Both the position numbers and the translations under genes were made by a program. The notes below the pieces were generated by a model that saw only the letters and a program-made list of their open reading frames with translations, searched no databases and was not told the DNA's origin. A stretch of 44,348 bases of DNA from a virus: the IMG/VR virus record IMGVR_UViG_3300025704_000042, positions 1 through 44,348 of that record, one strand, 5' to 3'. Positions 9,999 to 34,739 of this stretch are shown here, one piece after another (position 1 is the first letter of the stretch; the number at the start of each line of letters is the position of its first letter).

Positions 9999-11495
9999 AT
10001 GAAATTCGATGATGTAAAGAAAGTAGAAGAAGGCGTAATGTCAAACCTATTCGGTCGAGGAGCGGCCGCTGGAGTTAAATCAAGTGTTGGTAAACAATCA
10101 GGCCAAACACAAGAACACATTCTAGCACAAGATATTTTCTTACAAGATTTTACAAGTGATGCACTCGGTGCTATTCAAACTGCGGTTGATGCAGGCCTAA
10201 TTGTAAAAGATGGAGAAGTCGTTGACCCAACAGAAGTACCAGAACCTGCACCAGCACAAGCACCAGCACCAGCGGCACCTGCAAAAGCAAAGGCTGCCAG
10301 ACCACAAGGTGACGGCGGTAAAGCGGCACAAGCGGCAGTTCAAGCAACAAACAATTACATCAAAGGCATCTCTCAGCAAATGTCTAAGATACAAGATCCA
10401 AAGCAAAAAATGGAGTTATCTAAAGAACTAGTCAACTACATGAAAGATCGTCAAGGTCGTGCTGAATGGGAAAACGGTGTTAAGACAGCAGAGATGGTAC
10501 TAAAGAAAAATTTAGATCCTAAGTTTGCAATGGGTCTGATCGGACAATTAAAACGTCCACTGAAACAAGCACAACAAACACAGTCACAAAACCCTAGTGC
10601 GGCTCCTAAAGGAAACGTACAAGAAGCATATGATATCTATATGTTGAATAAACTTGCAGAAGCATGTGGCTTTACATTAAAGCAATTAGGTTACACAGTA
10701 TTAACTGAAGGTAGACCAAACAAATATCGACTAGTACCAAACAACTATTTAAAACTTAACAACATTTTTGAAAGTATCTTAGGCGAAGCGGCTGGTACAA
10801 AGACAATGAAGCAGTTTCTTAATGACTGGTTAGCAAACTATATGCAAGGTGTCCCAGAAGCAGAATATGGACCGGCGTTAAAAGGAATCGTTGATGAATT
10901 TTCTAATGCATGGAACACTACTGGAAAATTAGATCAAACAATTTTAACGAAGTTAGGAAAAGGAAGTTATGCCGCAACCAAAACAGCAGGTGTGACTCCA
11001 GAAGGTGCTAAAGATGCACAGGGTGCAGGCCAAGCACAACCTGCGGCAGCCGGTGGACAAGCCGCTCCCGTACAAAATGCACAGCAACAAGCACAGCAAC
11101 AAGCACAACCTGCTCAAGCACAAGCACAACCTGCTCAAGCACAAGCACAGCCTGCTCAAGCACAAGCACAACAGGCTCAAGCACCTGCACAAGCACAACC
11201 TGCACAGGCCGCTCCTGCTCAAGCACAAAATGGATATCAACAAGCACAAGCAATTAAGTCTCAGTTAAACAAATTGTACAATGTTGATCAAGTTGTGTAT
11301 AATGATTTAGTTAAAAGTCTACAACAAAAACCAGTTAAAACTGATGAGCCACCAGCAGTTGCAATGACAGGTAATGAAAAACCTAATCAAGTAGGCGGAC
11401 CTAGTTTTACAGACGTAGCAACTAATCAAGCAAAACCTGCTGTAACTGAGTCAGCAAAAAGAGCAGAACGCATTGCTAAATTAAGTCTGAGATAA
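9999..11495 (+). CDS. Large conserved phage protein with Ala/Gln/Pro-rich repeat linker
   Basis: 498 residues starting directly after the upstream stop. An N-terminal domain (about 1-75) has KKVEEGVMSNLFGRG and FLQDFTSDALGAIQTAVDAG. A Pro/Ala-rich linker (about 78-105) follows, then a helical region (about 110-200), a third domain (about 208-320) with YMLNKLAEACGF, and a long PAQ-repeat linker (about 345-415). A last helical segment ends ESAKRAERIAKLSLR. Alternating folded domains and flexible linkers suggest a structural or scaffold-type protein, and a similar architecture exists in cyanophage hypothetical proteins. I cannot assign a function. The next gene starts four bases after its stop, implying a shared role or shared expression. 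Confidence 0.8.
   Translation: MKFDDVKKVEEGVMSNLFGRGAAAGVKSSVGKQSGQTQEHILAQDIFLQDFTSDALGAIQTAVDAGLIVKDGEVVDPTEVPEPAPAQAPAPAAPAKAKAARPQGDGGKAAQAAVQATNNYIKGISQQMSKIQDPKQKMELSKELVNYMKDRQGRAEWENGVKTAEMVLKKNLDPKFAMGLIGQLKRPLKQAQQTQSQNPSAAPKGNVQEAYDIYMLNKLAEACGFTLKQLGYTVLTEGRPNKYRLVPNNYLKLNNIFESILGEAAGTKTMKQFLNDWLANYMQGVPEAEYGPALKGIVDEFSNAWNTTGKLDQTILTKLGKGSYAATKTAGVTPEGAKDAQGAGQAQPAAAGGQAAPVQNAQQQAQQQAQPAQAQAQPAQAQAQPAQAQAQQAQAPAQAQPAQAAPAQAQNGYQQAQAIKSQLNKLYNVDQVVYNDLVKSLQQKPVKTDEPPAVAMTGNEKPNQVGGPSFTDVATNQAKPAVTESAKRAERIAKLSLR
11085..11235 (+). repeat. In-frame tandem repeat encoding PAQAQAQ
   Basis: A 21-base unit coding for Pro-Ala-Gln-Ala-Gln-Ala-Gln is repeated about three times perfectly or nearly so between 11108 and 11170, flanked by degenerate Gln/Ala/Pro repeats. 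It encodes a flexible linker and is prone to length change by slippage. Confidence 0.85.
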
Positions 11496-12678: not shown

Positions 12679-12686
12679 CATAAATA
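12679..12686 (+). promoter_or_regulatory. Late promoter CATAAATA
   Basis: CATAAATA upstream of the structural gene at 12769. Five bases later is an ATG that opens a four-codon frame (Met-Arg-Gly-Ile-stop, 12692-12706) exactly at the predicted transcript start, leaving a 77-base leader before the real gene. Confidence 0.65.
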
Positions 12687-12768
12687 TATGTATGAGAGGA
12701 ATATAGGATTCCGATCAAAATAATATAAAGATACGCATAGTATCTTTGAACATAAAAGGAAAATAACC

Positions 12769-16539: not shown

Positions 16540-16857
16540 ATGGAAGTTACACAAATAGCAAAAGACAAAATTAAACAACACCTCAACAATAGGGGCAAAG
16601 GCGTGGGCATACGTATAGGCGTAGAAACTACTGGTTGCAGTGGTTACGCATACAAACTTGAGTTTGCCGACACCATTAATCCTGAAGATATCAGAACAGA
16701 TTACGAAGAGTTCTCTGTATTGGTAGACCCTAAGGCTCAACCTATGCTTGAAGAAATAACTGTAGATTATCAAAAACACGGACTTAACGAAGGATTTGAA
16801 TTCATCAACCCAATCGAAAAAGCACGTTGTGGATGCGGAGAGAGTTTTACAGTTTGA
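16540..16857 (+). CDS. iscA: A-type iron-sulfur cluster carrier (IscA/HesB-like)
   Basis: 105 residues, the usual length for the family. The three ligand cysteines are present: Cys 33 in TTGCSGY and Cys 97 and 99 in RCGCGESF. The protein would hold a 2Fe-2S or 4Fe-4S cluster and pass it to target enzymes in the cytoplasm. Phage copies occur in marine phages and may help maintain Fe-S enzymes during infection; in this genome the radical SAM protein is an obvious Fe-S client, though this link is inference. The gene has both a consensus early promoter and a late promoter placed exactly five bases before the ATG. Its stop overlaps the TTG start of the next gene. Confidence 0.95.
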   Translation: MEVTQIAKDKIKQHLNNRGKGVGIRIGVETTGCSGYAYKLEFADTINPEDIRTDYEEFSVLVDPKAQPMLEEITVDYQKHGLNEGFEFINPIEKARCGCGESFTV

Positions 16858-22842: not shown

Positions 22843-22870
22843 AAAAGGGGACTTCGGTCCTCTTTTTTTT
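22843..22870. terminator. Bidirectional rho-independent terminator with TTCG loop
   Basis: GGGGAC TTCG GTCCTC followed by nine T on the plus strand and preceded by AAAA. Read on the minus strand it is GAGGAC CGAA GTCCCC followed by TTTT. It lies between convergent genes and overlaps the Nudix stop codon, so it can end transcripts from both sides. Confidence 0.93.
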
Positions 22871-23282
22871 ACAAACCTTTTAGTATTTGCATTTTTGCTA
22901 CTACAACATCAATGTTTACAGTAGTGAATAATCCTGGATGTAACGGTTTAGGATATTTGTCATTGCCTACCCAAGCATAACCACAATGCTCTGAGTTTAA
23001 GTTAGGAATAAACTCGTCTTCTACTCTACAAAAGAATGTGTGATAAGCAAATGTATTGTTAACGAATTTTTGTATGGGTACAAGTTTTAATTTACTGATA
23101 TCAAACTCGATTTCTTCCGAACACTCTCTGGTCAAACCTTCAAGTAGAGTTTCTTTCTTACCGATTTTCCCACCAGGAATCGACCAACTAGTATTCTTTG
23201 AATCTGTTCTTAAGAGATATAATGAACGCTGAGTAGCCTTGCTATAAAAGAAGATACCAGCAGATTGGTTAACAATTATCAT
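22869..23282 (-). CDS. Nudix hydrolase
   Basis: 137 residues. The Nudix box is clear at 38-57: G-x5-E-x7-RE-x2-EE, with Gly 38, Glu 44, Arg 52, Glu 53, Glu 56 and Glu 57; the usual following Gly is Glu here. Nudix enzymes hydrolyse nucleoside diphosphates linked to another group, such as oxidised dNTPs, ADP-ribose or mRNA caps. T4-like phages carry several (for example NudE), but the substrate cannot be told from the motif. The ATG at 23282 lacks a ribosome site and stands exactly five bases behind a late promoter octamer, so it should be a late gene on a leaderless mRNA. Confidence 0.92.
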   Translation of the reverse strand: MIIVNQSAGIFFYSKATQRSLYLLRTDSKNTSWSIPGGKIGKKETLLEGLTRECSEEIEFDISKLKLVPIQKFVNNTFAYHTFFCRVEDEFIPNLNSEHCGYAWVGNDKYPKPLHPGLFTTVNIDVVVAKMQILKGL

Positions 23283-24895: not shown

Positions 24896-26647
24896 TTAAG
24901 TCCCGTCACTTGGTGGTAAATCATCTGGTGCTAATTTTAAAATTTGTGATAATGGTTGTGCTGATGCAATGTTACTACCTTCATTCTCACTATAAATTAG
25001 TGTTGTGTTATTAATGAACTCAGATAATTGAGATTTATCAGTCGCTCCAAATCCAGTTGTTGTTCTAACATTTTCTGAAATTCTGACCCAAATTGTTCCG
25101 TCCCATCTATACAATAAATTAGGAGAGTAATCAATGCGTAAGAAGTAATTTCCTACTTGCGGGTTTGCTGGGAAAGATATACCAGCGCCAGTAGGTAATC
25201 CGTCTGGAGCAATGTCTGTTCCTGTCATGTACCCTGCTGTGTATCCATATGTTCTTGGAGTTGAACGAGCAATGAATTGGAATCGAGGATCACAGTCAGC
25301 ACGATAGTCCATTGTATCTGGACCATAAGGTTCTGTGCCAGTAAAGCCTGATGCTGTTGGATCTTGGTCTGCTGTTGCGTAAGTATTGTCAGCAGTACCG
25401 TATGGGCCTGTTACTGGACCAGTAATTTGTACTGATAAAACTTTTGTTCCTTCTAGTGCGCCTGAACCTGATCCTGTAGGAGACATCTCGGGTGTCATCT
25501 CTACAACTTGCAACGATGCTTGTACAAATTTATCAATGACTGTTTGCATATCAATCTTGTCTTTGAGTTGTCCTTGCATATGCTCTAATAATTCTTTAGA
25601 TATTTTTATACCAGTAGAATCATTTTTGTATTGGTTGTTACGCATAGTGATAACTTGTCCGTTGCCACTGAGTGCATTGTTGCCTGGTTGCCATGATCGA
25701 ACATCTGTTGGTGGTGCTGGTTGATTGTACTTTTTAGACAACTCGCCATTTGCTTCATATTCACCGTAACCAGGAACTACGTAAAGTTCACTTGCATCAT
25801 AACCTGATTTAGGAACAAGTCGTTCTGCTTCTTTTAAGTTAGCATCATTAATTCTGATGTTTTCATTGTAACGACCCAAGATACCTTTTAGTGTATCACC
25901 TGTATCAAGTTGCCAATATGGATCAGGGTCAGTGTCGCCTGGCTTCACGCCTGCAGGAACTTCTTGTAATGCAATATAGTTTTTATCACCAAATGTCATT
26001 GAATATCCTGGCGGATATACTTTTGTCTTTTCCCAGTCTCCTAAATAATTATCAAGGTTAACTGGTTGATCTAATATATTTGAGAACTCTTGGCTATCAA
26101 CCAATGGCTCACACTTAATACGCCACAGATGAGGATACCATGTGCTTGAGAAACCTTCACTTGCATAGTTTGCATCAGTGATTTGCATAAACCTTTTTAA
26201 TGCTACTGGTAATTTTGTATCTAAAGGATTGTAATCTATTAAGTGAGGTAATTCAAGTACATCACCGACCATAAGTTTTCTACCTATGATATCGATCATG
26301 TCATTATAATGAACTGTAACAAAAATAATGTCATTACTTAAGAATAAACCAAACTGACTGAGATCAAAGTCTAAGTTTTGTACAGAGTAATGACCACGTA
26401 ATCGATAGATATCTTTATCATACTTGCGATCTCTGTTTTCTAAGAATAGCAAGTCTTGTATGTTTGTTGGGTCAAGTTTATCATATTGAGGCTGAGTGTA
26501 ATCAGCAGATGGTCCCTGATCTACTGGTCCCAAATACTTGTGTATATACAAATCGGTCCCACCAGTAGTCAACTGTTCGGAGATATTTCTATCCATAAAA
26601 CGGTAATCGTTTTGTTTCTCAGGACGGTATAATGATAATCTTGGCAT
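24896..26647 (-). CDS. Virion structural protein, leader of a minus-strand late operon
   Basis: 583 residues with start ATG 26647; upstream in-frame ATGs up to 26746 would extend it by 33 hydrophobic residues but read through the promoter, so I reject them. MPRLSLYRPEKQNDYRFMDR and GGTDLYIHKYLGP are hallmarks of a virion protein family of T4-like cyanophages. Further segments include YDKDIYRLRGHYSVQ, LSNDIIFVTVHYNDMIDIIGR, DWEKTKVYPPGYSM and a carbohydrate-binding-like WQLDTGDTLKG region. The rest is Gly/Thr/Pro-rich. Probably part of the neck or tail. The late promoter GATAAATA sits exactly five bases before the ATG. Confidence 0.83.
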   Translation of the reverse strand: MPRLSLYRPEKQNDYRFMDRNISEQLTTGGTDLYIHKYLGPVDQGPSADYTQPQYDKLDPTNIQDLLFLENRDRKYDKDIYRLRGHYSVQNLDFDLSQFGLFLSNDIIFVTVHYNDMIDIIGRKLMVGDVLELPHLIDYNPLDTKLPVALKRFMQITDANYASEGFSSTWYPHLWRIKCEPLVDSQEFSNILDQPVNLDNYLGDWEKTKVYPPGYSMTFGDKNYIALQEVPAGVKPGDTDPDPYWQLDTGDTLKGILGRYNENIRINDANLKEAERLVPKSGYDASELYVVPGYGEYEANGELSKKYNQPAPPTDVRSWQPGNNALSGNGQVITMRNNQYKNDSTGIKISKELLEHMQGQLKDKIDMQTVIDKFVQASLQVVEMTPEMSPTGSGSGALEGTKVLSVQITGPVTGPYGTADNTYATADQDPTASGFTGTEPYGPDTMDYRADCDPRFQFIARSTPRTYGYTAGYMTGTDIAPDGLPTGAGISFPANPQVGNYFLRIDYSPNLLYRWDGTIWVRISENVRTTTGFGATDKSQLSEFINNTTLIYSENEGSNIASAQPLSQILKLAPDDLPPSDGT

Positions 26648-30061: not shown

Positions 30062-30682
30062 ATGATTATAGGTATTACAGGACTTATCAGCAGTGGCAAA
30101 GACACAGCCGCCGATTATCTTATTCGATTTCATGGCTTTAAAAAACTCAGTTATGCAGGTACGTTAAAAGATTGTGTATCTGCTATCTTTGGCTGGGACA
30201 GAGAAATGCTAGAAGGTACAACTCAATCTAGTAGAGAGTGGCGAGAAGAAGTTGACGAGTGGTGGGCAAAACGATTGAACATGCCTCATCTAACTCCTCG
30301 TTGGGTCTTACAGTATTGGGGAACTGAAGTAGGTAGACGTTCATTTCATAATGACATCTGGGTAGCATCAATCGAAAATCAAATACGACAAGTAAAAGAT
30401 AATGTTGTTATAACTGATTGTCGATTTAAGAATGAAGTTGATGCAATCAAAAATGCAGGTGGAACAACAGTACGAGTAGAAAGAGGCGAAAGACCTACCT
30501 GGTTAACTGATGCAGTCGATTACAACTACTATAAAAACCCACAAGCACTTGCACGATTAACTGATTTAAATATACATGCCAGTGAATATAGTAGTGTAGG
30601 TTTAGACTACGATCATACAATTTACAATAATGATACTATCGATGCACTACACAAACAAATGGAGTTAATAGTCAACGGTTAA
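30062..30682 (+). CDS. 1: Deoxynucleoside monophosphate kinase, T4 gp1-like
   Basis: 206 residues. The N terminus has a P-loop, GLISSGKDT at 7-15, followed by family segments LKDCVSAIFGWDREMLEG, SREWREEVDEWW, LTPRWVLQYWGTEVGR and NVVITDCRFKNEVDAI, which match T4 gp1 and its relatives. The enzyme phosphorylates dNMPs to dNDPs to feed DNA synthesis. T4 gp1 is 241 residues, so this is somewhat shorter. Single gene behind a near-consensus early promoter. Its last 18 bases overlap the 3' end of the HNH-like gene on the other strand. Confidence 0.92.
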   Translation: MIIGITGLISSGKDTAADYLIRFHGFKKLSYAGTLKDCVSAIFGWDREMLEGTTQSSREWREEVDEWWAKRLNMPHLTPRWVLQYWGTEVGRRSFHNDIWVASIENQIRQVKDNVVITDCRFKNEVDAIKNAGGTTVRVERGERPTWLTDAVDYNYYKNPQALARLTDLNIHASEYSSVGLDYDHTIYNNDTIDALHKQMELIVNG

Positions 30683-31015
30683 GTCTCCTCTTGTCCAAAC
30701 AATTTCTTTTTTCTTTACCACTTCAACACAGTTTAAACAGACTGTACGCAGATTAACAAAAGCCACATTGGTAGAATTTCCATCAATGTGGTATACTGTC
30801 ATTTGTGTAGGGTATAAACTTCTGAATCCACATAAAAAACAATTACTATCTTTCTGATATCCTGCTCTCTGCCACAAGTAAACATGTTGTCTCTTAGGAT
30901 TTTTCTTATTACATGCTTGGCACTTGCTTCGATAATGATGTTTGCCTTTCTTAATATAGTTCACAGCACACATGTTTTTATTGCATTTTTTGCATATTGG
31001 TCTAGGTAAACTCAT
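30665..31015 (-). CDS. HNH-like zinc-binding protein
   Basis: 116 residues. It contains two zinc-ribbon-like pairs, CKKC and CQAC near the N terminus, then CFLCG, and a degenerate HNH core: VYHIDGNSTNVAFVNLRTVCLNC, with His-Ile-Asp-Gly-Asn, Asn-Leu and a Cys-x2-Cys. The pattern matches a small family conserved in T4-like cyanophages, often annotated HNH endonuclease. The second HNH histidine is not evident, so nuclease activity is uncertain and it may be a DNA-binding protein. ATG 31015 has no ribosome site and lies five bases behind a perfect TATAAATA, predicting a leaderless late mRNA. It converges on and overlaps the dNMP kinase gene. Confidence 0.85.
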   Translation of the reverse strand: MSLPRPICKKCNKNMCAVNYIKKGKHHYRSKCQACNKKNPKRQHVYLWQRAGYQKDSNCFLCGFRSLYPTQMTVYHIDGNSTNVAFVNLRTVCLNCVEVVKKKEIVWTRGDLTVDY

Positions 31016-31028: not shown

Positions 31029-31073
31029 AAAAACCTTCGAAGGCACGTTAAACCGGTGTTTTTTTAAATACAA

Positions 31074-31081
31074 GATAAATA
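31074..31081 (+). promoter_or_regulatory. Late promoter GATAAATA for tail sheath
   Basis: GATAAATA 58 bases before the sheath ATG. The predicted transcript start, 31087, is the A of an ATG that opens a 20-codon frame. Confidence 0.82.
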
Positions 31082-31086
31082 ATAAT

Positions 31087-31149
31087 ATGAAAAAACAATC
31101 AGGGTGTAACCCTCAAAATCATACAAAAGGAAAATTATCATGGCACTAA
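31087..31149 (+). CDS. Possible leaderless 20-codon upstream ORF
   Basis: ATG at 31087 is five bases after the late promoter octamer. The frame codes for a 20-residue basic peptide (MKKQSGCNPQ, then NHTKGKLSWH) and stops at TAA 31147-31149, nine bases inside the sheath gene in another frame. It reads across the sheath ribosome site AAAGGAAAA. The product may be meaningless; the interest is in translation coupling. It could also be chance, since the leader is AT-rich. Confidence 0.3.
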   Translation: MKKQSGCNPQNHTKGKLSWH

Positions 31150-34100
31150 CATCACCAGGCGTAGAAGTAAGCATCGTAGACGAAAGTCAATATTTACCAG
31201 CCGCACCGGCATCAATCCCATTAGTTGTATTAGCAACTGCATCGAACAAAGCAGACCCAACTTCAACTGGAATTGCACAAGCAACAACACCAGCAAATGC
31301 TGGCAAAATGTACAGAATCACTTCTCAACGTGATCTAGTTACTTTATACGGTAACCCATTCTTTTATACTTCAGCGGCAGGTACTGCTCTGCAAGGATAC
31401 GAGTTAAATGAATATGGATTACTAGCGGCATACTCTGCACTTGGTATCTCAAATCAAGTATTTGTATTAAGAGCAGACATCGATCTAGCAAGTTTAGTAG
31501 GATCAACAGGTCGTCCAACTGGAGCACCAACAAACGGCGCTTACTGGGCAGACACAACAAGTTCAACTTGGGGTATCAACGAATTTAATTCAGTAACTGG
31601 CGCATTTACTGCTAAATCACCAATTGTTATCTCTGACGCAACTTCATTAGTTGGCGGCGTAGCAGGCGGAGCACCATTAGCATCAATCGGAACTATCGGT
31701 GATTATGCTGTAGTTGCAATATTTAATTATGATGAACCTACAGCGGCAACTGCTCCACAATACTACTACAAGGATGTTAACAATGCTTGGAGAGTAGTCG
31801 GATCAGCAGATTGGCAGAATGCATGGCCTACATTACAAGGTAGCGTTGCTAACCCAACATTAACTGGTGGAGATTCATTCCAAATCGTTTTAAGTGGTAC
31901 TAACTCAGCAACTATTACTGTTGCGGCGGCACCAAACAATACAGTAGCACAAGTTGCTTCTGATATTAATGCATTAGGATTTGAATATCTTACAGCATCT
32001 ACATCAGACAGCAAATTAACACTTTACTCTGCACAAACAGGTGGTACTGACGCTCCGTATTTTATCAGACTTAACAACGCAGTTGGTACTGTTCTTACTG
32101 ATTTAGGTTTCCCTAATGCAACTACAACTGGACTTCAACCTGAATTAACATACGGCACATCTGCTCAACAGCCATTATGGCAAGAAGGTCAAGCGGCTCC
32201 AAGACCAACTGGATCTGTTTGGATCAAAGTAGCAGGAACAGGATTACAACCAGTTATATCTACATACAACAGTACTACAGCAAATTGGGTACCTAAAACA
32301 CCAAGTTTTGCTACTAGTGACTGGGCTCAAATTTATGCGGCAGACTCAACAGGTGGCGGAGCAATCCCAGCTGGTTCAGTTTATGCACAATATAACTTTA
32401 ATGACAATCCTTTCTCAGCAGGCCCTGTATACATATACTATCGTTCTGCTACAGGCGCAACGGTAATTAATGGTAATAACACAGCACCAGACTTTACAAA
32501 TGGTCCTTATAGTGCTAAAGTACAAGTTACTACACCAGGCGTTTCATCTTTATCAGGTGGTTATACTTTAAACTTAGCAGATGGAACAGACGCAACTGAC
32601 TTTGTAACTGCATGGTCAGGAGCAGGTATTCCAAATACAACTGCTGTAGTTAATGACGATGGTTCAATCACTATAACACACACTAAAGGTGGTGTTATTG
32701 TATTAGATGACTATGATGCAACAACAGGTGTTTCTCAAGGTTTATTCTCAGAAGCAGGATTTGTTTCAGGAACAACAAAAGGTTGTAAAGATGGTCCTTT
32801 CAAAAATGACGTATCATTTACACCAAGTACAACAGCAAGTGCTTCAGGTACTGGCTTTGTTCCAATCATTACTAATGACTATCAATACTACGACTTCAGC
32901 CCAGACTCATTCAGTGTTGCTGGATCAGGTTATGTAGTAGGCGAAACTGTTACTGTCTTAGGTTCTGACTTAGGTGGTGCTTCACCAGCTAATGACTTAG
33001 TATTAAGAATATCTAATGTCGCAGGTGGCGTTCCAACTGGAGTTACTTGGGTATCAGGTACAGGTGCATCAGCATATAAAGTACAGTTATCTAACTGGCA
33101 GTCACTATCATTAACAACTACAGGTGCTAATTCATTAACATCTAACGAAGGTGCTCCAACAGCAATCCCAACTAACTTAACTAATTGGTTCTATTCATCA
33201 ACTGATCAATCTGATATCATGGTTAATTACAACGGTGCTTGGAGAGGTTACAAGAATCAAGGTTATGATTCAAATGGTCTACCGACTCCTTCAGTAGTAA
33301 ACGCAACTGATCCTAAAGGGCCACTCATTAGTGCAAGTGCTCCAACACTTCAAAGTGACGGAACTGCTCTAGTATATGGTGATCTTTGGATCGATACTAC
33401 AGATTTAGAAAACTATCCTAACATTTATAGATGGCAAAACGTGTCTTCTGTTGATCGTTGGGTATTAATCGACAACACAGATCAGATTACTCCACAAGGT
33501 ATTACATTCGCTGACGCACGTTGGGCAACTAACGGAACAACTAATCCAGCAAATGATCCTATTCCAAGCATCGTATCATTACTAACAAGTGACTACTTAG
33601 ACGTTGATGCTCCGTTATCTTCAACATCACCAGCTGGTATGTTGTTGTTTAACAGCAGACGTTCAGGTTACAATATTAAGCAATACAGAGTTAACTACTT
33701 TAATGCTGATAGTTTCCCTTCACCAGCAGTGCTTCCAGCACAGAAAGATGCATGGGTAACTTCTTCAGGTTTACAAGCAGACGGTTCTCCTTACATGGGT
33801 CGTAAGGCTCAGAGAGCAGTAGTTGTACAAGGACTGAAATCAGCAATCGATAGCAACACTGCTATTAGAGATGACGATAACTTCTTTAACTTACAAGCAA
33901 CACCTAACTATCCAGAACTACAACCTAACATGATTACGTTGAACTCTGATAGAGGTGAAACATCTTACATCATTGGTGACACACCAATGAGATTGAAAGA
34001 TAGTGCAACTGACATTCAAGCATGGGCAACTAATGCGGCAGGCGCAATCAGCACAGGCGAAGATGGGCTTGTAACTAGAAACACTTACATGGGTCTATTC

Positions 34101-34739
34101 TATCCATCAGGTGTCACTAATGACTTAGCAGGCGTTACTGTTGCAGTTCCTTCATCTCACATGATGCTTAGAACTATATTACGTAATGACAATATTGCTT
34201 ATCCTTGGTTAGCACCAGCAGGAACTAGACGTGGTATCATCGACAATGCTTCAAGCATTGGTTACTTAGATGCCCAGACTGGTGAGTTTGAGTCTATCAG
34301 AACTCGTATTGGTATTAGAGATGTTTTATATAGCAACTTTATTAACCCAATGGTATTCTTCACAGGTCAAGGCTTACTGAACTATGGTAATAAAACATCA
34401 TTTGATTCAGCATCTGCTTTAGACAGAGTTAACGTAGCACGATTAATTGCTTACATACGTAGACAATTAGTTATTGGTACTAGACCGTTTGTCTTTGAAC
34501 CAAATGATCCACAAACAAGAAAATCAATTGCGGCAGTAGTAGAAACACTATTCCAAGACTTGATTTCAAAACGTGGACTATATGACTACTCAGTAGTTTG
34601 TGATTCATCTAACAATACTCCAGCGAGAATTGATAGAAACGAACTTTGGATTGATATAGCAGTTGAGCCAGTGAAAGCGGCTGAATTCATATACATTCCA
34701 GTTAGAATATTTAACACTGGTGAGTTATCAGGAGCATAA
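31140..34739 (+). CDS. 18: Tail sheath protein, T4 gp18-like, enlarged
   Basis: 1199 residues against 659 in T4. The N terminus ALTSPGVEVSIVDESQYLPA and SALGISNQVFVLRADIDLAS and the C-terminal third are sheath-like: LIAYIRRQLVIGTRPFVFEP, DPQTRKSIAAVVETLFQDLI and IAVEPVKAAEFIYIPVRI. Sheath subunits form the contractile outer tail tube and slide past each other during contraction. The extra length is a large beta-rich, Thr/Ser/Gly-rich insertion between about residues 130 and 790, containing repeated types such as SVAGSGYVVGETVTVLGSDLG, which would decorate the outside of the tail. AAAGGAAAA precedes the ATG. Followed by a hairpin and the tube gene with its own promoter. Confidence 0.93.
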   Translation: MALTSPGVEVSIVDESQYLPAAPASIPLVVLATASNKADPTSTGIAQATTPANAGKMYRITSQRDLVTLYGNPFFYTSAAGTALQGYELNEYGLLAAYSALGISNQVFVLRADIDLASLVGSTGRPTGAPTNGAYWADTTSSTWGINEFNSVTGAFTAKSPIVISDATSLVGGVAGGAPLASIGTIGDYAVVAIFNYDEPTAATAPQYYYKDVNNAWRVVGSADWQNAWPTLQGSVANPTLTGGDSFQIVLSGTNSATITVAAAPNNTVAQVASDINALGFEYLTASTSDSKLTLYSAQTGGTDAPYFIRLNNAVGTVLTDLGFPNATTTGLQPELTYGTSAQQPLWQEGQAAPRPTGSVWIKVAGTGLQPVISTYNSTTANWVPKTPSFATSDWAQIYAADSTGGGAIPAGSVYAQYNFNDNPFSAGPVYIYYRSATGATVINGNNTAPDFTNGPYSAKVQVTTPGVSSLSGGYTLNLADGTDATDFVTAWSGAGIPNTTAVVNDDGSITITHTKGGVIVLDDYDATTGVSQGLFSEAGFVSGTTKGCKDGPFKNDVSFTPSTTASASGTGFVPIITNDYQYYDFSPDSFSVAGSGYVVGETVTVLGSDLGGASPANDLVLRISNVAGGVPTGVTWVSGTGASAYKVQLSNWQSLSLTTTGANSLTSNEGAPTAIPTNLTNWFYSSTDQSDIMVNYNGAWRGYKNQGYDSNGLPTPSVVNATDPKGPLISASAPTLQSDGTALVYGDLWIDTTDLENYPNIYRWQNVSSVDRWVLIDNTDQITPQGITFADARWATNGTTNPANDPIPSIVSLLTSDYLDVDAPLSSTSPAGMLLFNSRRSGYNIKQYRVNYFNADSFPSPAVLPAQKDAWVTSSGLQADGSPYMGRKAQRAVVVQGLKSAIDSNTAIRDDDNFFNLQATPNYPELQPNMITLNSDRGETSYIIGDTPMRLKDSATDIQAWATNAAGAISTGEDGLVTRNTYMGLFYPSGVTNDLAGVTVAVPSSHMMLRTILRNDNIAYPWLAPAGTRRGIIDNASSIGYLDAQTGEFESIRTRIGIRDVLYSNFINPMVFFTGQGLLNYGNKTSFDSASALDRVNVARLIAYIRRQLVIGTRPFVFEPNDPQTRKSIAAVVETLFQDLISKRGLYDYSVVCDSSNNTPARIDRNELWIDIAVEPVKAAEFIYIPVRIFNTGELSGA

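Follow-up and report, generated by a model that had tools for sequence, protein, structure and literature searches.

Tail sheath leaders of an uncultured aquatic phage group share a compact RNA element and a recurrent AUG at the predicted transcript start

Why should the mRNA of a phage tail sheath gene begin, by prediction, with an AUG that is not the sheath start codon? This question is raised by a 44-kb virus sequence with T4-like tail genes (IMGVR_UViG_3300025704_000042; the whole stretch of 44,348 nucleotides is called the window below), in which a late promoter is followed after five bases by an ATG that opens a short frame ahead of the sheath gene. Reading of positions 31074-31089 bears out this arrangement as the initial annotation gave it, and likewise the 20-codon frame at 31087-31149, which crosses the sheath Shine-Dalgarno (SD) sequence and passes the sheath ATG at 31140; its stop codon ends 10 bases inside the sheath gene, the A of the sheath ATG being counted as 1. 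The region is laid out as follows.

31034..31065, plus strand: palindrome CCTTCGAAGG, a gap, then a T-run; terminator-like, between the divergent upstream gene and the sheath promoter (read directly)
31074..31081, plus strand: gp55-type late promoter GATAAATA of the sheath gene (by motif, with T4 spacing from PMC1524935)
31082-31086, plus strand: spacer ATAAT between the promoter and the upstream ATG (read directly)
31087..31089, plus strand: predicted +1 of the sheath mRNA, an AUG (by T4 late-promoter spacing)
31087..31149, plus strand: upstream frame MKKQSGCNPQNHTKGKLSWH and stop, 20 codons; length, phase and stop not conserved (open reading frame; relatives' leaders)
31101..31113, plus strand: hairpin AGGG-U-GUA-ACCCU, stem S1 (covariation at pair 4; folding of the window leader)
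31106..31124, plus strand: conserved core GTAACCCTCAAAATCATAC; its loop GUA (31106-31108) and UAC (31122-31124) form a possible pseudoknot stem S2 (core conservation)
31125..31131, plus strand: SD sequence AAAAGGA of the sheath gene (read directly)
31140..34739, plus strand: tail sheath gene, 1199 aa (phrog_10581, E 6e-204; PF17482, E 3e-15)

The two profile matches agree with the earlier call of the downstream open reading frame (ORF) as tail sheath. Over 60% of its length, the window's sheath protein is 46% identical to that of Sinorhizobium phage Phosso, its closest match among named phages; the best such matches are sheaths, mostly from genomes of about 280-490 kb. Another ORF of the window, 9999-11495, had no match among named phages.

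The T4 late motif TATAAATA is described as lying at -13 to -6 of the start site, with a variable first base (PMC1524935); at the same spacing, +1 would be the sixth base past the octamer, which is the A of ATG 31087. Transcription is thus predicted, by analogy with T4, to start on this A. The octamer GATAAATA at 31074-31081 is TATAAATA-like, as in gp55-dependent late promoters, and a gp55-like sigma factor was found in five of six large relatives (E 1e-11 to 4e-10), the 44-kb window being a fragment. Octamers with at most one mismatch occur 71 times in the window against 72.3 expected, which is chance level, so that the evidence for the promoter is its spacing and not the motif. Late-promoter prediction is reported to have failed in pelagimyophages (PMC7029224). 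Upstream of the promoter, the palindrome and T-run would act as a terminator; a similar pair lies 5' of the promoter in many of the relatives' leaders that were printed out.

An ATG five bases past a late motif leaves no room in the RNA for an SD sequence. The initial annotation had likened the sheath leader to leaderless genes by this spacing, and the likeness holds: six other [ACGT][AC]TAAATA motifs in the window have an ATG exactly 5 nt downstream, opening frames of 105-583 codons.

13239, 16540 and 37481, plus strand: genes of leaderless geometry, ATG 5 nt past a late motif
30665-31015, 24896-26647 and 22869-23282, minus strand: genes of leaderless geometry, ATG 5 nt past a late motif

The gene at 16540-16857, leaderless by this geometry, encodes an Fe-S_biosyn domain (PF01521, E 2e-17). 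At 12679-12706 a late motif is followed by ATG 12692 at the predicted +1, and the frame it opens is just 4 codons long; this may be another throw-away 5' AUG.

The same geometry recurs beyond the window. Among 631 distinct pairs of late promoter and gene, taken from the window and 160 related loci, the start codon lies at offset 4 or 5 in 172 (69 and 103, respectively), at offset 16 to 25 in 239, and beyond 25 in 203, including the sheath leaders; offsets below 4 (2 pairs) and from 6 to 15 (15 pairs) are rare. At offset 4 or 5 the RNA again has no room for an SD sequence. Offset tracks gene identity: an HNH-like gene (weak match) has offset 4 or 5 at 94 of its 97 distinct promoters, as does a 161-aa gene at 36 of 41; for the tube and head-tail-adaptor genes an offset of 18 to 22 is usual. 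In the whole genome of Pelagibacter phage HTVC008M, 11 of 46 late motifs have an ATG at offset 5 (8 of 18 in the first 50 kb). Within 99.9 kb of T4 stretches, none of 17 exact motifs and none of 29 relaxed ones has a start within offset 9. By these spacings, late genes without a leader are widespread both in this phage group and in the cultured pelagiphage HTVC008M; besides those of the window, examples lie in NC_020484 (L210-L212). Phage transcripts are described as often leaderless (PMC5312081), so that phage mRNA without a leader is nothing new in itself. In the open-licence literature, we recognised no paper that deals with an RNA of the sheath leader, or with leaderless late genes in T4-like phages.

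To compare sheath leaders, we assembled overlapping sets, in which counts refer to distinct leader sequences, some contigs having been fetched more than once. A protein search gave 80 sheath loci, 74 of them with a start (L007, L019, L044, L047, L063 and L069, with no sheath start, were left out), and 41 distinct leaders; 39 of these were aligned, L052 and L067 being left out. Further leaders came from pattern scans with the RNA element described below. The first set comprises 78 distinct leaders from 150 of 155 loci (five dropped, with no motif or cut off) and the enlarged set 162, after removal of 23 non-sheath hits and 13 loci without a promoter motif; the tree of the latter has 161 rows, L186 being dropped for its short protein. 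L028 and L386, from one contig, lack a promoter motif, and L040 and L257, also from one contig, have no leader directly before the sheath gene because an endonuclease ORF intervenes. The enlarged set was gathered with element patterns, so that conservation of the element in it is partly by construction; the 41-leader set is less biased, although there too the element was recognised by a pattern holding GTAA and CCT.

An AUG occupies the predicted +1 in 110 of the 162 leaders and is absent from 52. The proportion is similar in the first set (60 of 78, next to 14 different 5-base spacers) and among the protein-found leaders (28 of 41). Across the window and the 160 related loci, 68 of 88 sheath leaders have an ATG at offset 5; among the remaining late leaders of SD-served genes, defined by a start at least 15 nt past the motif, 1 of 239 has one (this 239 equals the number of pairs at offset 16-25 by coincidence). 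The +1 AUG is therefore a recurrent trait of sheath leaders and not a chance one, and its place at the first bases of the mRNA, as at a leaderless site, follows from the predicted start site only.

The frame that this AUG opens is not such a trait. Among the 110 AUG leaders the upstream frame runs from 1 to 52 codons, some having only 1-3, and uses all three phases (58/37/15); it has 20 codons in 10, ends at +10 as in the window in 24, and closes upstream of the sheath start in 82. The first set gave the same picture, with frames of 2 to 52 codons, stops anywhere between 42 bases ahead of the sheath start and 110 bases past it, and the window's stop position in 9 of 60; on the tree of its 78 leaders the stop position changes at least 31 times and the phase 19 times. 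The three nearest relatives (L001-L003, 97-99% sheath identity) have a leader identical to that of the window, and beyond them the frame is soon lost: four leaders of the window's own 13-row clade stop after 2 codons. The initial annotation had proposed to compare the ATG, the frame and its overlap with the sheath gene across relatives, and to count its reading as refuted if close relatives did not conserve the frame. The ATG recurs, but past the closest relatives the frame is not kept, and we reject both a regulatory upstream ORF of conserved peptide or length and a conserved overlap with the sheath start. The peptide does not matter.

What the leaders do share, and what the first reading of the sequence had missed, is an RNA element between the 5' AUG and the SD sequence. 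It has the form AGGN-N-GUAA-NCCUCANAAUNNUAC, lies 14-18 bases 5' of the sheath start, and is the strongest feature of the leader. Among the 41 distinct leaders found by sheath protein similarity, without use of the element, 40 carry it (L067 does not), and in all 40 its terminal UAC lies 14-18 bases from the sheath start and 2-6 bases from the AGG of the SD sequence. The core in this set is fixed except at its variable positions and the loop is invariant; the corresponding tree has 9 to 16 changes at the bases just 5' of the core, and 3 to 7 in the SD region. In AUG leaders 4 to 11 bases separate the AUG from the hairpin. By this comparison of sequences, the element and not the tiny protein frame is the best-kept part of the sheath leader.

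Stem S1 is supported by covariation at one of its four pairs, in a fixed-register count made without a covariance model. Pair 4 is T-A in 100, G-C in 23, C-G in 9 and T-G in 4 of the 162 leaders, with 26 unpaired in the fixed register (first set, 77 leaders: 48, 14, 7 and 3, with 5 unpaired); some of those scored as unpaired have longer loops and pair in another register. The 5' base of this pair changes at least 12 times on the 78-row tree. The GUA and UAC of S2 are invariant in the 41-leader set, and a fourth S2 pair would be A-U in 134 of 162 leaders. Since the other S1 pairs and S2 hardly vary, they are silent for or against pairing, and S2 has no support from covariation; that the loop GUA(A) may pair with (U)UAC as an H-type pseudoknot is our proposal. 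Computed folds of four leaders were weak, with energies no better than those of shuffled sequences (z 0.87 to 1.42), and by eye the CCU of the element makes only three pairs with the sheath SD. In the folds the 5' AUGC could also pair with a GCAU in sheath codons 2-3; the raw association looked strong (76/16 vs 25/45, p 1e-9), nothing was left of it on independent pairs, and we do not claim this pairing.

The element is specific to the sheath gene. A first pattern scan by the element alone gave at least 80 loci, and the 80 kept all lie directly ahead of a sheath ORF. Of 438 pattern hits in loci fetched by element or by sheath, 415 lie before a sheath ORF and 6 before the ORF of a homing endonuclease with the sheath gene next in line; 3 are cut by a contig end and 14 lie elsewhere; none of these 14 has the AGG stem, and all come from the shortest pattern. 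Leaving aside the hits cut by a contig end, those with the stem thus all stand ahead of a sheath gene, or of a homing endonuclease that is itself followed by one. The intervening ORF, of GIY-YIG type (L369 9162-9866, L040 3194-3898, L257, L383, L397 and L408), would be expressed from the sheath promoter and behind the sheath RNA element; in each of the six loci its stop and the sheath start share the sequence ATGA.

Outside the group the element was not seen: the sheath leaders of eight named phages, T4 and HTVC008M among them, have neither the element nor an ATG at offset 5, and that of Vibrio phage 2.275.O has an ATG at offset 6. Searching named phages with the leader as nucleotide query gave weak matches in 102 records, all below 80% query coverage; the best 20 are short pieces, two of them at sheath genes. 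No Rfam 15 family reached its gathering threshold anywhere in the window.

We propose, with a probability of roughly 0.58, that the sheath mRNA starts with a compact leader that acts in cis as a control region, made of an element beside the SD sequence and an accessory 5' AUG that is indifferent to frame. More specifically, transcription from the late promoter would start, by the T4 rule, on the A of the AUG; the hairpin AGGN-N-GUAA-NCCU would follow, its loop and the downstream UAC might form an H-type pseudoknot, and the sheath SD would lie within a few bases. The element would most likely set the rate of sheath translation, either as the binding site of a phage protein, in autogenous or cross-control as for T4 gene 32, or through a fold that holds the ribosome site open. 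The AUG may load ribosomes in leaderless mode on short throw-away frames, the peptide being irrelevant.

Alternatively, the +1 AUG may be passive, part of a conserved initially transcribed sequence (TATGCA-like, -1 to +5) that serves promoter escape, 5'-end chemistry or RNA stability, or that is a relic of a leaderless ancestor. We regard this as a tentative reading, though one to be taken seriously. On the 161-row tree the block from -1 to +5 changes little (-1, 9 times; +1, 11; +2, 19; +3, 22; +4, 18; +5, 15) against 55 changes at -2 and 35 at +6, and the frame is free; this pattern points to conservation of the whole block and not of the codon. It is not clear that the AUG is kept better than its neighbours, the G at +3 varying about as often as +4 and +5. 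Against this reading, the bases at these positions differ, and vary more, in the two largest other SD-led clusters, tube and head-tail adaptor; a third cluster, of a 206-aa gene, keeps -1 and +2 well without ever having AUG, and AUG stands at +1 in 1 of 239 other SD-led late leaders.

Next comes the reading closest to the original one, that ribosomes starting in leaderless mode at the 5' AUG translate the upstream frame across the sheath SD and feed the sheath start by reinitiation or block it, the act of translation and not the peptide being selected. We hold this possible but doubtful. The enrichment of the AUG in sheath leaders and the routine use of leaderless starts in the group (172 of 631 pairs) speak for it, and together they imply that ribosomes could start there; a conserved frame or overlap was not found. 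Some properties of the frames point the same way. Frames running past +10 occur in 4 of 110 leaders with AUG vs 12 of 52 without, that is, 106 of 110 vs 40 of 52 are closed (Fisher p 0.0003, 161 tree rows), and open in-frame fusions to the sheath in 0 of 110 vs 7 of 52. In the first 78 leaders the phase without a stop in the element was also rarer than in neutral simulation (P 0.001-0.004), but this signal faded when the data were doubled to 161 leaders (P 0.07-0.15). Selection on the frame, strong in 78 leaders, was thus not upheld in the larger set, and we retain it as weak support. On phylogenetically independent pairs (7 on supported branches, 12 on all) the link between AUG and closed frame mostly ran in the right direction, with a median p of 0.5 that is nowhere near significance. 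A single base change would give AUG in just 3 of the 7 in-frame fusions, all of one clade with AUA at +1; about a third of all leaders (52 of 162) do without AUG, its presence switching 9 times on the 78-leader tree, and the frames' stops are scattered on both sides of the sheath start. A ribosome start at the +1 AUG may occur, the frame tests being equivocal.

A role of the hairpin or pseudoknot in mRNA stability or processing, as 5' protection or an RNase site and not in translation, appears unlikely. It would fit an element near the mRNA 5' end, and by eye one AUG-less clade (L035, L042, L043, L048 and L061) has an extra stem-loop between promoter and element that replaces the AUG; other, unrelated hairpins are seen by eye in the sheath leaders of the distant phages Phosso, Atu_ph07 and HTVC008M. 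Against it, plain protection would need neither the narrow distance from element to SD nor the invariant loop. A more elaborate reading joins both parts of the leader in a two-site switch, in which a leaderless 70S ribosome starts at the +1 AUG and its passage or stalling sets the state of a conserved H-type pseudoknot that gates the sheath SD. We judge it improbable; if true, the amount of sheath made late in infection would depend on how many leaderless-competent ribosomes are at hand. A compact hairpin with a short tail just 5' of the SD is also the layout of the preQ1-I riboswitch, and yet a small-molecule riboswitch of mini-pseudoknot type is very improbable here, given a very short 5-base loop, a virion protein as the served gene, and no known riboswitch family in low-threshold Rfam scans of three leaders or at threshold in the window.

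For the preferred reading, an RNA control region beside the sheath SD, the nearest studied parallel in its working would be the operator of T4 gene 32; we draw it as an analogy and claim no membership. It too is a small pseudoknot-capable element 5' of the ribosome site in the mRNA of a T4-like phage, described as lying about 67 nt 5' of the start and as working with a downstream A+U-rich tract with UUAA(A) repeats (PMC3014915). The sheath element differs in gene and sequence, in a putative S2 of only 3-4 pairs, and in the +1 AUG. The same source (PMC3014915) describes further small leader structures that affect translation, as proposed here: the operator hairpin of T4 gene 43, the conserved stem of gene 25, and gene e. 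Since the product of gene 25 belongs to the baseplate, a conserved stem at the start of a virion gene has a precedent. In the leaderless genes of the group and of HTVC008M, the ATG past the late promoter opens a real gene, whereas in the sheath leader it opens a throw-away frame before an SD-served gene. The sheath leader thus offers a sheath-specific compact RNA element in more than 150 distinct leaders of an uncultured aquatic phage group, small enough for probing and reporters; with a predicted +1 AUG, in a group where leaderless starts are routine, it would be a natural system for SD-led versus leaderless initiation on one mRNA.

A second RNA was found in the same phage group. The freshwater-2 RNA (RF02980) is, like the sheath element, a cis-regulatory RNA behind a late promoter, but it belongs to another gene and has another structure; of the sheath leaders scanned at low threshold, two matched its model at all, at 14.6 and 15.4 bits against a cut-off of 49.9. 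Each of six large relatives (L467-L472) has it once above threshold (61.9-70.3 bits), in all six behind GATAAATA and before a gene whose product starts MGRPLKI; the one such protein tested, from L468, had no Pfam or PHROGs match. The freshwater-2 family thereby gains a phage home, the window itself being without a hit. In a separate observation, a ribosomal protein S21 homologue was found in L461, a 364-kb relative and one of six large relatives tested (E 3e-14), and HTVC008M is annotated with one as well.
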